DNA of 20,386 nt from a virus: the IMG/VR virus record IMGVR_UViG_3300046002_004770, positions 1 through 20,386 of that record; one strand, 5' to 3'. The notes beneath the pieces are model-generated. The model was not told where the DNA came from and did no database searches. It saw nothing but the letters and a program-made list of their open reading frames with translations. The position numbers and the translations under genes are program-made. Below, piece by piece: positions 2,934-6,580 of the stretch. Each line of letters opens with the position of its first letter. The first letter of the stretch is position 1.

Positions 2934-2944
2934 CAGGTTATAAT
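2915..2944 (+). promoter_or_regulatory. Sigma70-type promoter inside the accessory module
   Basis: TTTACA at 2915-2920 is separated by 18 bases from a perfect TATAAT at 2939-2944. Transcription would begin near 2951, giving a leader of about 18 bases with a GAAGAGG ribosome site before the ATG at 2969. The -35 box and most of the spacer lie within the end of the holin-like gene. The match is close to the bacterial housekeeping consensus; whether the host's main sigma factor reads it is inferred. Confidence 0.65.
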
Positions 2945-2968
2945 ATGCTTATATGAAGAGGCCTAGAA

Positions 2969-3304
2969 ATGTCGTCTTCCGTCGCCACCGTGTCAGCATA
3001 CGACCGCACCGCACCCCAAGACCCCAATCGGATCTTAGCGATGCAAACACCCGACCCCTCGTTCGACCTCCTGAACCCCAATGTGGGATGGGTGATCGGC
3101 CCAATTGCTGTCACAACAAACTGGGTGGGGGCCAATCTGGTGAATGTCGATCTGAGCTGGGCAGAGTTGCTGTACAGCGTTGCGGCTGTGATATATGCAA
3201 GTGCGGGCTTAGTGAAGAGCTTCAAAGAGAAGCGGCAATCCAACTCCTCCCCGACATCCAAATCATCTTCGACTGACAAAGAAGAGACAATCGACCTGAA
3301 ATAA
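2969..3304 (+). CDS. Single-helix membrane protein of unknown function
   Basis: This 111-residue protein has a GAAGAGG ribosome site seven bases before its ATG and a near-consensus promoter just upstream. Residues 1-60 are polar with Pro and Asn. Residues about 65-84 (AELLYSVAAVIYASAGLVKS) form one probable transmembrane helix, followed by KEKR and a serine-, lysine- and glutamate-rich tail. The positive charges after the helix suggest the C-terminus faces the cytoplasm. I do not recognise a family. Long open frames on the other strand and in another forward frame across this stretch lack such signals. A lysis or membrane role is only a guess from the neighbours. Confidence 0.6.
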   Translation: MSSSVATVSAYDRTAPQDPNRILAMQTPDPSFDLLNPNVGWVIGPIAVTTNWVGANLVNVDLSWAELLYSVAAVIYASAGLVKSFKEKRQSNSSPTSKSSSTDKEETIDLK

Positions 3305-3370
3305 CCTCTGTCCCCAGAAGGGTAAGGTGATCTAAGTGCCGGTTGGTCAAACGGTTCCATCTATCCGAAT

Positions 3371-3390: not shown

Positions 3391-3630
3391 ATGTTTATCG
3401 AAGCAGTTTTTCTCTACGCAGCACAGCCGGAATGCCCAAAAGGCAATTGCAAGCCAGTCCAGTCGGTCACGACAACAACTACGGTTGAAAAGACTGTATC
3501 ACCGCTGATCACTCTGCCTCCTCGCCCAGGTAATGGTAGTCGCCGCCCAAGGCTATTCCTTTTTAATCGCAAGCCAGCGGCAACGCAAATGAATTACATT
3601 TACATCTGTCCCAACGGGGCATGCAAATAA
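3391..3630 (+). CDS. Small protein with a CPxGxC motif at each end
   Basis: The 79-residue protein has a good ribosome site (AAAGGTGAG) before its ATG. Its N-terminus is a short hydrophobic stretch (MFIEAVFLYAA) that could be an export signal but has no basic n-region and no lipobox. CPKGNC lies at residues 15-20 and CPNGAC at 73-78. Between them is a Thr- and Val-rich linker, then a Pro- and Arg-rich segment. The paired CPxGxC motifs could bind metal or form disulfides if the protein is exported. I do not know a named family; similar motifs occur in small planctomycetal proteins, from memory only. The next gene overlaps its stop. Confidence 0.55.
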   Translation: MFIEAVFLYAAQPECPKGNCKPVQSVTTTTTVEKTVSPLITLPPRPGNGSRRPRLFLFNRKPAATQMNYIYICPNGACK

Positions 3631-3812
3631 TGTTCACCCAACTCATCATACGCCTGATGACCCCACTGATCGTGGAAGTGATCAAGGAACTGCTCCAGCA
3701 ACTCGCCAGGGGCGAAGTCGTAAGCCTCAATGAGGAAACGGTTAAAGCCGCAATGGTTCAGCGTGAAGACGCTATTTCCAAAGCAGTAGCCGCAGCGACA
3801 GCTGGCCTGTGA
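3630..3812 (+). CDS. Small helical protein of unknown function
   Basis: The likely start is the ATG at 3630, overlapping the upstream stop as TAATG; an in-frame ATG also exists at 3621. The product is about 60 residues and looks like one long amphipathic helix: a hydrophobic N-terminal half (FTQLIIRLMTPLIVEVIKEL) followed by a charged then alanine-rich part. It could sit on the membrane surface. The very short membrane-protein gene at 3809 overlaps its stop codon. No family is recognised. Confidence 0.5.
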   Translation: MFTQLIIRLMTPLIVEVIKELLQQLARGEVVSLNEETVKAAMVQREDAISKAVAAATAGL

Positions 3813-3946
3813 TACGGGTGTTAGCTACTTTCGGATACATCATACTTGGAATTCTTATCGGTTTGTCCTTGTGTCTCTACTGGTCTATGGATGACGACTG
3901 GTATGAGAAGTGGGAACACCAGGACAAGCCGGAAGGGTGGGATTGA
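3809..3946 (+). CDS. Very short single-helix membrane protein (GTG start)
   Basis: This 45-codon gene fills the stretch between two longer genes. It starts with GTG in a four-base GTGA overlap with the upstream stop and ends at TGA 3944-3946, three bases before the next ATG. Translation gives IRVLATFGYIILGILIGLSL up to residue 21, a clear transmembrane helix at about residues 5-24, then a tail rich in Trp, Asp and Glu (WSMDDDWYEKWEH, then KPEGWD). The membrane-then-acidic-tail layout and the exact fit between neighbours argue for a real gene despite its size. The role is unknown; small phage membrane peptides of this kind can be holins, antiholins or spanin parts. Confidence 0.6.
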   Translation: MIRVLATFGYIILGILIGLSLCLYWSMDDDWYEKWEHQDKPEGWD

Positions 3947-3948
3947 TT

Positions 3949-4449
3949 ATGCTTTTCGCTGCACTGATGCTACTTGGGCAGACCTCGATCCCCTCTTTCA
4001 ACGTACCTCCGGTAACGGAAGTCTCCGTTGTTTTTGTGGATCGCGGTAGGACATACGTTGTCGGTACACAATCTGGAACAGTCAAGGCTTATGACGGGCA
4101 GGAAACTGACCCTGAGAAGAAACCCGTTCCACCGAACCTGACAGGCCTTGCAAACGAGTTCTGGTCCATAGTGACCATTACTGTGCCTGACAAGGCGAAA
4201 CGCAAGCAAGGGGCATTAGCCCTCGACAAATCGATACAGATCACTGAAGCACAGGCTGGAGCGTTGGGCCTGGACATGGCTCAGATAATCGGAGTATTGG
4301 CAAAGAGTGCTGACGACAATGGCATTCGGACTTATTGGGCTGGTGTGGGTCTTGGCGATCTGCTTGCAAGCAAGGGGTACAAGACACGCGAAGAACTGCT
4401 GGCGGCATTAGCTGAAATCAAGAAAGCCTGTGAGGAGTTGAGCAAATGA
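3949..4449 (+). CDS. Probable exported protein of unknown function
   Basis: From the ATG at 3949 the product is 166 residues, with GGAAGGG about ten bases upstream. It begins MLFAALMLLGQTS, a short hydrophobic stretch that may be an export signal. A GTG at 3910 would add 13 residues including an arginine and make a more usual signal peptide, but would overlap the small membrane gene. Residues about 20-45 are beta-rich (VSVVFVDRGRTYVV), and the C-terminal 90 residues are mostly helical, ending in KTREELLAALAEIKKACEEL. No catalytic motif is seen. It overlaps the papain-like protease gene by ATGA. Such coupling hints at a partner, inhibitor or carrier for the protease, but that is an inference. 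Confidence 0.5.
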   Translation: MLFAALMLLGQTSIPSFNVPPVTEVSVVFVDRGRTYVVGTQSGTVKAYDGQETDPEKKPVPPNLTGLANEFWSIVTITVPDKAKRKQGALALDKSIQITEAQAGALGLDMAQIIGVLAKSADDNGIRTYWAGVGLGDLLASKGYKTREELLAALAEIKKACEELSK

Positions 4450-5354
4450 CCCCTTACGATGCTCTCAATTTCGGCTTCGGCTGGCACAAAGATCCTCAGG
4501 AAGTCGCCCGAATCGTCTCCGAAAACGGAATTCAAGGCTTTTCCGCGACCGCTCCCCATCTCATGGATTCCGCTCCCACTGGGCCTGTCATACTGACAAA
4601 GTACATGGACATGGTCTGGGGCAAAGATAAATGGATTTACAATCAGGGTTCCTGCGGCTCATGTGTTGCCAACGGTGCTGGGATGGCGGCAGAAATCCTC
4701 GTAGCCCAAGACATAACAGATAACGGTGCTGAGAATCCCGGTCGCCTTGACTGCATGTCCATTTACTGGGGAAGTCGTGTTGAAATCGGTGGTGGAAGAA
4801 TTTCAGGGGAAGGCTCGGTCGGAGCTTGGGCGGCTCAGTATTTGCAGAAATATGGGGTTCTCCCCCGTAAGAAATATGCATCCGTAGATCTTACAAAATA
4901 CAGTGCCGCACTCTGCTGCTCAAGTTATGCCCGTAAGGGTGTTCCTGACGACCTCGAGCCTACAGCAAAACTCCACCCAATCAAGTCTTACGCCAAGGTT
5001 GACTCCTGGGATGAACTGGTCAGTGCAATCACCTCCGGCTATCCCGTCACAGTTGCTTCCGATCAAGGGTTCAGCTATACGAGAGACGCTAACGGATTCT
5101 CAGCCCCTAAAGGCTCATGGTCGCACCAGATGATCATCATTGGGATTGACCTCTCAGACGAGTCCGCAGTGATCCTGAATTCATGGGGCAACGACTGGAT
5201 CTCAGGCCCGAAACCTGACTGGATGCCCGCTGGTAGCTTCAAGATCCGCAAGAAAACTGCGGAAAGCATGCTTAAAGAGGGCGATTCCTGGGCCTTCAGC
5301 GATCTGGCTGGCTGGCAACGCAAAGAAATCCCTTGGGCGAAACTCAATTGGTAG
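4446..5354 (+). CDS. Papain-family (C1) cysteine protease
   Basis: The 302-residue protein carries every catalytic landmark of clan CA papain-like peptidases: NQGSCGSCVANGAG with the oxyanion-hole Gln67 and nucleophile Cys73, then WSHQMIIIGID with His227, then ILNSWGNDW with Asn245. The Ser-Cys pair before the nucleophile (Cys70) matches the conserved disulfide Cys of papain. The 66 residues before the active site are short for a propeptide and I see no signal peptide. The protein ends with a Trp-rich tail. This family cuts peptide bonds in proteins. It is unusual in a phage. It lies among holin-like genes and in front of the capsid genes, with no peptidoglycan hydrolase in the window, so it may degrade a protein layer of the host at lysis or entry. 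The family call is firm; the biological role is inferred. Confidence 0.85.
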   Translation: MTPYDALNFGFGWHKDPQEVARIVSENGIQGFSATAPHLMDSAPTGPVILTKYMDMVWGKDKWIYNQGSCGSCVANGAGMAAEILVAQDITDNGAENPGRLDCMSIYWGSRVEIGGGRISGEGSVGAWAAQYLQKYGVLPRKKYASVDLTKYSAALCCSSYARKGVPDDLEPTAKLHPIKSYAKVDSWDELVSAITSGYPVTVASDQGFSYTRDANGFSAPKGSWSHQMIIIGIDLSDESAVILNSWGNDWISGPKPDWMPAGSFKIRKKTAESMLKEGDSWAFSDLAGWQRKEIPWAKLNW

Positions 5355-5461
5355 CCTGGTCTTTGTTCCTGCTGTATTTCTACCTGTACCTGATCTTCAA
5401 CACAATCGCTCTGGCAATAGGGACCATCAGACATGCCTCAAGAACCAGACGACGACGATGA
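5348..5461 (+). CDS. Very short membrane peptide with Arg-rich tail (TTG start)
   Basis: A 37-codon open frame runs from TTG at 5348, overlapping the end of the protease gene, to TGA at 5459-5461 inside the next gene. It encodes VAWSLFLLYFYLYLIFNTIA from residue 2, one strong transmembrane helix, then GTIRHASRTRRRR. The positive tail after the helix fits an N-out, C-in protein. It covers the 78 bases between two genes that otherwise have almost no gap. The weak points are the TTG start and only a poor purine-rich site upstream, so this could be chance. If real, it may belong to the lysis group. Confidence 0.4.
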   Translation: MVAWSLFLLYFYLYLIFNTIALAIGTIRHASRTRRRR

Positions 5462-5821: not shown

Positions 5822-6580
5822 GTGTCTGAACCGGAACTAAGTCTGGTTTACAAGCTGGCCCCAGCACCGAGGGTTGATAATTCCGACTCTGGCGGGTTCG
5901 CTGGCTATGCTTCGACATTCCATTTCCTTGATTATCATGGCGACATTATCGCACCAGGTGCTTACAAGGCTGATATCCAGAGGTTTATGTCCAAAGGGTT
6001 TATCGGTGGCGTAAATCACGACCATGCGAATCCCATCGGCAAGCCAGTAGAACTCTTTGAGGATGCCAAAGGGCTGTTCCTCGAGGCAATTCTGGTGGAT
6101 ACGGTCAAGGCTCAGGAAGATCGCAAGCTCATCACGTCAGGCGTTGTCAAGGAATTGTCGGTGGGTATTATCCCATTGCAAATCAAGCGAATGACTAAGA
6201 AGGACACGCTCGACTATTGGAAGAAGGCTGGATACAGCCCATCCGAAGAAGAACTGATGCGAGCCGAGAGCGGTTCCCGCCTGATCAAACGAGCAAAACT
6301 ACTCGAAATTTCACCAGTCGCACTCGGTGCAAACGAACAAACAGCCATCTCGTCCTTCAAAGCTGGGCGAAAGATCTCTCAAACAACGGCAGACCTACTG
6401 GCTCAAGTGTGCGCCCAGGTCAAAGCCTCTTACGAAATGCTTGAAACTCTGCTTGTCGATGCCGGAATCAAATCCGAATCGGAAGAAGAAGAAGCCGAAG
6501 CTCCGGCCCAGGCAAAAATTGCAGTGGAAGACCCATTAAACGACCTTCTCGAAGCGTTTCGCGCCTACATCAAGGAGTAA
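5822..6580 (+). CDS. HK97-type prohead maturation protease
   Basis: The gene starts with GTG at 5822 after a GAGG site. The 252-residue product is an HK97-family prohead serine protease (family U35), which cleaves the capsid scaffold domain during head maturation inside the procapsid. Visible features are the substrate-like GYASTFHFLDYHGDIIAPGA near residues 28-47, the candidate catalytic His in GGVNHDHANPIG (residue 66 or 68), the Ser113 in VKELSVGI, and a C-terminal ISPVALGANEQT that is typical of the family. The C-terminal 70 residues are acidic and probably act as a scaffold tail. It lies four bases before the capsid gene. The portal gene that usually precedes it is absent here. Confidence 0.85.
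   Translation: MSEPELSLVYKLAPAPRVDNSDSGGFAGYASTFHFLDYHGDIIAPGAYKADIQRFMSKGFIGGVNHDHANPIGKPVELFEDAKGLFLEAILVDTVKAQEDRKLITSGVVKELSVGIIPLQIKRMTKKDTLDYWKKAGYSPSEEELMRAESGSRLIKRAKLLEISPVALGANEQTAISSFKAGRKISQTTADLLAQVCAQVKASYEMLETLLVDAGIKSESEEEEAEAPAQAKIAVEDPLNDLLEAFRAYIKE

Follow-up and report, generated by a model that had tools for sequence, protein, structure and literature searches.

A conserved pair of papain-like cysteine protease and exported partner protein in a plausible lysis-type cassette of uncultured tailed phages

In the textbook view, tailed phages leave their hosts by means of a holin and a peptidoglycan hydrolase, and the canonical holin–endolysin cassette is S-R-Rz of phage lambda. 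A different neighbour for such genes is found in Thermoanaerobacterium phage THSA-485A (NC_018264), where the papain-like peptidase Tsac_2838 is encoded 15 bp downstream of a GH25 endolysin. THSA-485A thus sets a precedent, at the level of annotation, for a papain peptidase among phage lysis genes; our literature search found no study of this peptidase itself. Phages also draw on the papain-like fold superfamily for lysis in the form of the CHAP and NlpC/P60 endolysins (PMC10318531).

The DNA of interest here, referred to as the window, is 20,386 bases long and makes up the entire IMG/VR virus record IMGVR_UViG_3300046002_004770. It is included, at 100% identity and with an offset of ~8.17 kb, in a longer contig (G001; 37,575 b, ~37.6 kb). 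From this contig and a 39.8-kb relative (G004), the following gene order was obtained, several of the names being assigned by eye from the sequence: portal, tail fibres, LamG protein, protease cassette, prohead protease, major capsid protein, adaptor, tape measure and tail, with RuvC, ThyX, helicase and primase on the minus strand, and then integrase, YqaJ-like exonuclease and terminase. By eye, the helicase gene (G001:30515-32998, minus strand, in L025) appears to be split by an intein (CFPAGTLVDG...NNNYFANGVLVHN).

The features of the cassette and its surroundings are given below. Throughout, type A denotes C1 proteases like that of the window and type B a divergent C1 protease that occupies the same slot in other phages; pN/pS values are means over 10–11 relatives.

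1274–1867, + strand: 197-aa protein after the tail fibre/LamG gene, a marker of the shared module (sequence comparison)
1867–2076, + strand: 69-aa membrane protein, holin-like (hydropathy 2.62), conserved with the module
2318–2671, + strand: SNase-family nuclease in the same operon as the protease (Pfam PF00565 above cut-off; PHROG 452)
2673–2933, + strand: 86-aa holin-like protein with two TM segments (hydropathy 2.02 and 2.19; pN/pS 0.12)
2915–2944, + strand: promoter-like site TTTACA-18-TATAAT (11/12 matches), preceding the genes from the 111-aa protein to the protease
2969–3304, + strand: 111-aa protein with hydrophobic segments near threshold (hydropathy maximum 1.54)
3621–3812, + strand: 60/63-aa small, amphipathic-looking protein, present in type-A and type-B phages (pN/pS 0.08)
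3809–3946, + strand: 45-aa single-TM peptide (hydropathy 2.33 at residues 4–22; pN/pS 0.12)
3910–4449, + strand: exported partner, 179 aa (from GTG 3910) or 166 aa (from ATG 3949) (adjacency, alignments, AF2 model; pN/pS 0.12)
4446–5354, + strand: C1A papain-like cysteine protease (type A), 302 aa, no signal peptide (PF00112, AF2 model, residues, pN/pS)
5333–5461, + strand: 37/42-aa single-TM peptide with a basic tail (hydropathy up to 2.12; pN/pS 0.28)
5822–6580, + strand: prohead protease (PHROG 80 'head maturation protease', E 2e-28)

The initial annotation of this DNA described the ORF at 4446–5354 as a full C1 cysteine protease with Gln67, Cys73, His227 and Asn245, and this description was confirmed in three ways. 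Firstly, the ORF matches Pfam family PF00112 (Peptidase_C1; 28.5 bits against a cut-off of 20.7, residues 64–251) as the sole family above cut-off, with no known peptidoglycan-hydrolase family among the matches, and it also matches PHROG 16701 ('peptidase', E 6e-10). Secondly, Q67, C73, H227 and N245 are invariant in six type-A proteins (that of the window and five that are 68–97% identical to it), and Q67, C73 and N245 are invariant across 21 proteins of types A and B, down to ~20% identity. Thirdly, an AF2 model (pTM 0.81) finds xylellain (3ois) as its top match in the PDB (E 6e-12), with cathepsins and papain next. By profile, residues and predicted fold, the protein is a genuine member of the C1A papain family, and proteolytic activity is predicted for it. 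Cellular C1A enzymes usually carry an inhibitory propeptide and a secretion signal, though neither is strictly defining. For the window's protease, hydropathy gave no signal or TM segment above threshold, the Pfam scan gave no propeptide-domain match, and the N-terminal extension is short. With a pN/pS of 0.06, the gene is constrained as strongly as that of the major capsid protein (0.07). A search of INPHARED with the protease returned no match, and NCBIfam has no names for the protease, for the exported partner, or for the proteins with planctomycete-like motifs that are described further below.

Immediately upstream lies the gene for the exported partner, which consists of a signal-like segment, an N-terminal beta region and a helical C-terminal domain. 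Its AF2 model has a pLDDT of 80; a fold search with this model against the PDB gave nothing significant, and the protein has no family match. The tight overlap that the initial annotation had pointed out is real: the partner ORF and the start of the protease share 4 nt, and the start of the 37/42-aa ORF overlaps the protease stop codon.

How the pair fares in other phages was examined among viral contigs. The window's protease is found in 22 of these at 68–100% identity, including the contig that holds the window itself, and its next relatives (L045 and L157) are 42–51% identical. The 197-aa gene has a wider distribution, being ~84–95% identical in many phages that differ in their heads and carry one or the other protease type, many of them without the window's protease. 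In those inspected (L069, L071, L163, L149, L153 and L056), the slot holds a different C1 protease of 263–273 aa that is ~21% identical to the window's; phages that carry the 197-aa, 69-aa and 60/63-aa genes have such a different C1 protease in the slot, and no recognised peptidoglycan hydrolase was seen there. Type-B proteases match PF00112 at 38–48 bits in Pfam. As profiles, types A and B barely align (E 0.002, probability 13%), so what unites them is that both belong to PF00112, occupy the same position and come with the partner.

We compared 62 loci whose C1 sequences are distinct, 20 of type A and 42 of type B. In these the exported-protein gene stands directly upstream of the C1 gene, with exceptions that consist of (i) an inserted cargo gene, (ii) a partner ORF that was not resolved, or (iii) a contig end. 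Tallies of slot contents that take several loci per contig do not serve here as frequencies. The pair is kept in more distant loci too. Cargo has repeatedly been inserted between exported protein and protease (in L031, L033 and L021, upstream of the C1 gene, and in L045:1791-2411 and L074), and by eye these genes are PAPS-reductase-like or DNA-methylase-like. The initial annotation had suggested looking in related phages for the protease together with its neighbours, and nearly all loci do show a type-A or type-B C1 gene following an exported protein or cargo. Judged from sequence, exported protein and C1 protease form a conserved module; a search of the open literature found no description of such a protease/partner module.

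The partners themselves vary with the protease. In alignments, all share the signal-like segment and a region around PPxxExxxxFxDxGxTYxVGxxSGxV. On the C-terminal side of a proline-rich linker, type-A partners are helical, and type-B partners have a domain that, by eye, is thioredoxin-like and is without the CXXC pair. The C-terminal domain switches together with the type of protease; the N-terminal beta region is common to both. This co-change fits a physical partnership between the two proteins, but simple recombination within the gene would account for it equally well.

The remaining cassette genes are small and tightly packed, with the 60/63-aa ORF overlapping the 45-aa ORF. According to pN/pS, every cassette ORF is under purifying selection, and the low values of the 60/63-, 45- and 42-aa ORFs (0.08, 0.12 and 0.28, the last probably inflated by overlaps) argue that these are real genes. 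A reverse-strand ORF at 2938–3360 was rejected as a gene on the basis of a pN/pS of 0.56 and frame-breaking gaps. Of the very short single-helix membrane peptides that the initial annotation placed beside the protease (two in number), the description suits the 45-aa and 37/42-aa peptides, each with a single TM segment, but not the 60/63-aa peptide, whose maximum hydropathy of 1.37 leaves no TM segment above threshold and which looks amphipathic, unlike a classic single-helix membrane protein. The two holin-like genes noted nearby are recovered as hydrophobic segments at 1867–2076 and 2673–2933; the holin-like genes of the window, as well as those of G037 and G038 (see below), are called by hydropathy, and the window proteins have no match to a holin family.

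Conservation of these neighbours is uneven. The 86-aa holin-like protein has homologues in G011, L044, L056 and L149 and no convincing family match in Pfam or PHROG; the 111-aa protein has homologues in L056 (54%), G011 and L229; and the 60/63-aa protein is 52–63% identical in type-B phages. The 45-aa peptide is found in close relatives only, with no match among the ORFs of G011, L021, L044 and L045. In L056, the type-B protease is followed by a 41-aa TM peptide, a pattern resembling that of the window's 37/42-aa peptide. The SNase-family nuclease (2318–2671) is present in many relatives, not in all. Both hexamers of the promoter-like site at 2915–2944 are invariant in 11 close relatives, and the spacer is variable; the total number of sites of the TTTACA/TATAAT kind is no higher than chance.

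The pair is found with more than one kind of head. It accompanies HK97-like capsids in the window and in G011; it is present in G018 and G035, one of which has a P22-like coat match; and G021, which also carries it, has an SPP1-type portal and lacks any HK97-type capsid match. Since the module is not tied to one type of capsid and lies next to holin-like genes, a role in capsid maturation is unlikely. We also rejected the protease as the prohead protease of this phage: it matches PF00112 and no prohead family, head maturation is already served by the separate enzyme at 5822–6580, and the pair occurs with other head types too. In two distant phages the module lies elsewhere, next to a small holin-like gene and upstream of terminase. 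The closed genome G037 has the order partner, C1, a 93-aa one-TM protein and terminase genes, and G038 the order partner, C1, a 118-aa membrane protein, HNH and terminase. This position ahead of the terminase is also that of the lysis genes in lambda. As a side observation, a histone-deacetylase domain (PF00850, E 1e-35) is found in a protein of G021 (L193/L194), a closed 37-kb phage whose C1 protease is of type A.

We searched for peptidoglycan hydrolases in six reading frames of 28 contigs, covering Amidase_2, M23, SLT, phage lysozyme, M15_3 and NlpC/P60; control genomes gave the expected signals. Genomes were considered closed if they had exact terminal repeats of 63–127 bp, the lengths being odd, as expected of assembler k-mers. 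Eight closed genomes bear C1 (G011, G021, G018, G020, G025, G035, G037 and G039), and one (G030) does not. Neither these eight nor the remainder of the 28 contigs gave an above-threshold match to any of the six families; the only yield was one sub-threshold SLT fragment (G040). The contig that includes the window was likewise negative for the six families. These results agree with the initial annotation, which saw no peptidoglycan hydrolase in the window and proposed that relatives be searched for loss of classic endolysins. The full lists of Pfam matches for four closed genomes were also free of peptidoglycan hydrolases. They covered, for G011, ORFs from 60 aa upward except one large replication ORF (E ≤ 0.01); for G021, ORFs from 90 aa upward (E ≤ 0.001); and for G018 and G035, ORFs from 90 aa upward apart from a single large ORF in each (E ≤ 1e-4). 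Nor was there such an enzyme among the 25 Pfam families listed for G030 and G037–G039. CHAP, Amidase_3, GH25 and others were covered through the Pfam scans only. It is possible that these phages have a hydrolase of an unrecognised kind.

Of the 28 contigs, 26 carry C1, a figure that is no unbiased frequency, since the contigs were picked via the module. The two exceptions, the closed G030 and the near-closed G029, keep a thioredoxin-like exported protein and have no C1 protease and no match to the six hydrolase families; the 130-aa exported protein of G030 matches only the C-terminal domain of type-B partners. It follows that a phage without a known lysin need not have C1, and G030 shows C1 to be dispensable in this phage group. 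The slot in L057 is also without C1 protease and hydrolase. We further noted a clade of related phages (L179:6404-6793, minus strand, and L107/L111/L116) in which the slot holds a thioredoxin-like exported protein and neither a C1 protease nor a recognised lysin is present. In L057:892-1467, a phage protein that adjoins a holin-like gene ends in a PEP-CTERM-like sorting signal (VPEPSGLIAMGIALVIAAFSRKIRRLA).

Several observations bear on the host. Relatives encode CsrA and a DnaN-type clamp, which point to a bacterium. Upstream of or beside the integrase, L025:17350-17415 (in G001) reads, by eye, like the 3' end of a tRNA-Ala(TGC); this is probably attP and could identify the host. The N-terminal motif VNALE[NT]RESLSG, found in two closed relatives (L278:2320-2823, plus strand, and L281:7648-8139, minus strand), resembles planctomycete sorting motifs. 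The planctomycete-like motifs of G037/G039 and the PEP-CTERM-like tail in L057 are host leads only. Planctomycetes, the likeliest guess at the host, do have peptidoglycan (PMC4432640). The tRNA search gave no informative tRNA, and two scans of GTDB genomes with short conserved peptide patterns gave no relative of the protease.

We give about an even chance (probability roughly 0.5) to the reading that C1 protease and exported partner are a lysis or egress module of a group of tailed phages, in which the protease is released by a holin and cuts envelope proteins. We infer holin-dependent release, an envelope-protein substrate, a role for the partner and causation of lysis along the following lines: (i) lacking a signal peptide, the protease would be synthesised in the cytoplasm, (ii) late in infection, a holin-like membrane protein encoded in the same operon would release it, (iii) once released, it would cleave envelope or cell-surface proteins, substituting for a peptidoglycan hydrolase, and (iv) the exported partner, specific to the type of protease, would sit outside the membrane and may position, activate or restrain the enzyme. 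In favour we count the fold, selection, pairing, refilling of the slot by a different C1 protease, co-change, capsid independence, holin-like adjacency, the place ahead of the terminase in G037 and G038, the lack of a match to the six hydrolase families, and the papain peptidase that follows an endolysin in THSA-485A. Against it we count G030/G029 and L057, the peptidoglycan of Planctomycetes, the endolysin of THSA-485A, and the recognition of holins by hydropathy only. The initial annotation had suggested that a phage of a bacterium with a protein-rich envelope might use the protease as its lysin, and had named entry, or host or virion proteins, as other possible settings for it. The conserved pair, the holin-like neighbours and the absent hydrolase families speak for this; G030, which is without both protease and hydrolase, and THSA-485A, whose peptidase is additional to an endolysin, speak against it, and the lysin step is one that we infer. 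A lysis-type cassette in which a protease takes the place of the usual enzyme is a plausible interpretation, and one that the analysis has strengthened. The bolder proposal, that in a large lineage of uncultured phages the peptidoglycan-hydrolysing endolysin has given way to a C1A protease with a dedicated exported partner and lysis is by envelope proteolysis, the two interchangeable types being alternative 'protein-lysins', is tentative, with the odds against it.

Three other explanations were weighed. The protease could be an accessory of egress and dispersal, freed at lysis to strip surface proteins (S-layer, outer-membrane, biofilm) while an unrecognised hydrolase or host autolysins open the wall. 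THSA-485A shows exactly this order of endolysin and then papain peptidase, G030 manages without the protease, and cargo genes insert between partner and protease; however, no endolysin of the families searched is recognisable in the eight closed C1 genomes, and C1 is retained in nearly all of the contigs (picked, as stated, via the module). We consider this explanation unlikely, yet the best of the three. Less credible is a protease that resides in the particle and cuts surface proteins at adsorption or DNA entry, or processes tail-fibre proteins. Such a role would suit a gene lying between tail-fibre/LamG genes and head genes and travelling with the 197-aa gene beside the fibre genes, but in G037 and G038 the pair is ahead of the terminase, away from tail genes, a separate prohead protease is present, and the partner's export-signal-like segment would be unusual for a virion protein. 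An intracellular role is the most improbable of the three: the enzyme would attack proteins of the host or of a competing phage (in takeover, anti-defence or superinfection exclusion), and the partner would neutralise or deliver it. Papain-like enzymes are diverse in role and the region has other accessory genes (SNase, DNA methylase, PAPS-reductase-like cargo), but the pairing with an exported protein is conserved, holin-like genes adjoin, and the pN/pS of 0.06 marks a constraint as strong as that on the capsid gene.

A widespread phage group with a conserved module of swappable protease and exported partner and with no recognisable hydrolase makes lysis via envelope proteins testable, and the protease/partner module is a possible marker for uncharacterised lysis systems in uncultured phages.

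Several known systems resemble the module in part. The closest solved fold, xylellain (Xylella fastidiosa, PDB 3ois), is a bacterial C1A protease; it is only 18–19% identical and is a cellular enzyme, outside any phage cassette. Proteases of types A and B are both members of PHROG 16701 and PF00112, where the PHROG function stops at 'peptidase', and the partner is without a family match. The CHAP and NlpC/P60 endolysins belong to families separate from C1, and NlpC/P60 was searched for in the 28 contigs and was absent. Nearer to the module is Tsac_2838 of THSA-485A, to which the L149 type-B protease aligns at 26% identity over 95% of its length; in INPHARED, type B matches only THSA-485A and a 595-kb metagenomic phage. 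Like the proteases described here, Tsac_2838 is a phage C1A peptidase among lysis genes, but it is additional to a GH25 endolysin, which is its upstream neighbour in place of the exported partner. With lambda-type cassettes, the module shares an enzyme without a signal peptide beside small membrane proteins and, in G037 and G038, a location upstream of the terminase; it differs from them in that no spanins were recognised, the enzyme is a protease, and an extra, exported partner accompanies it.
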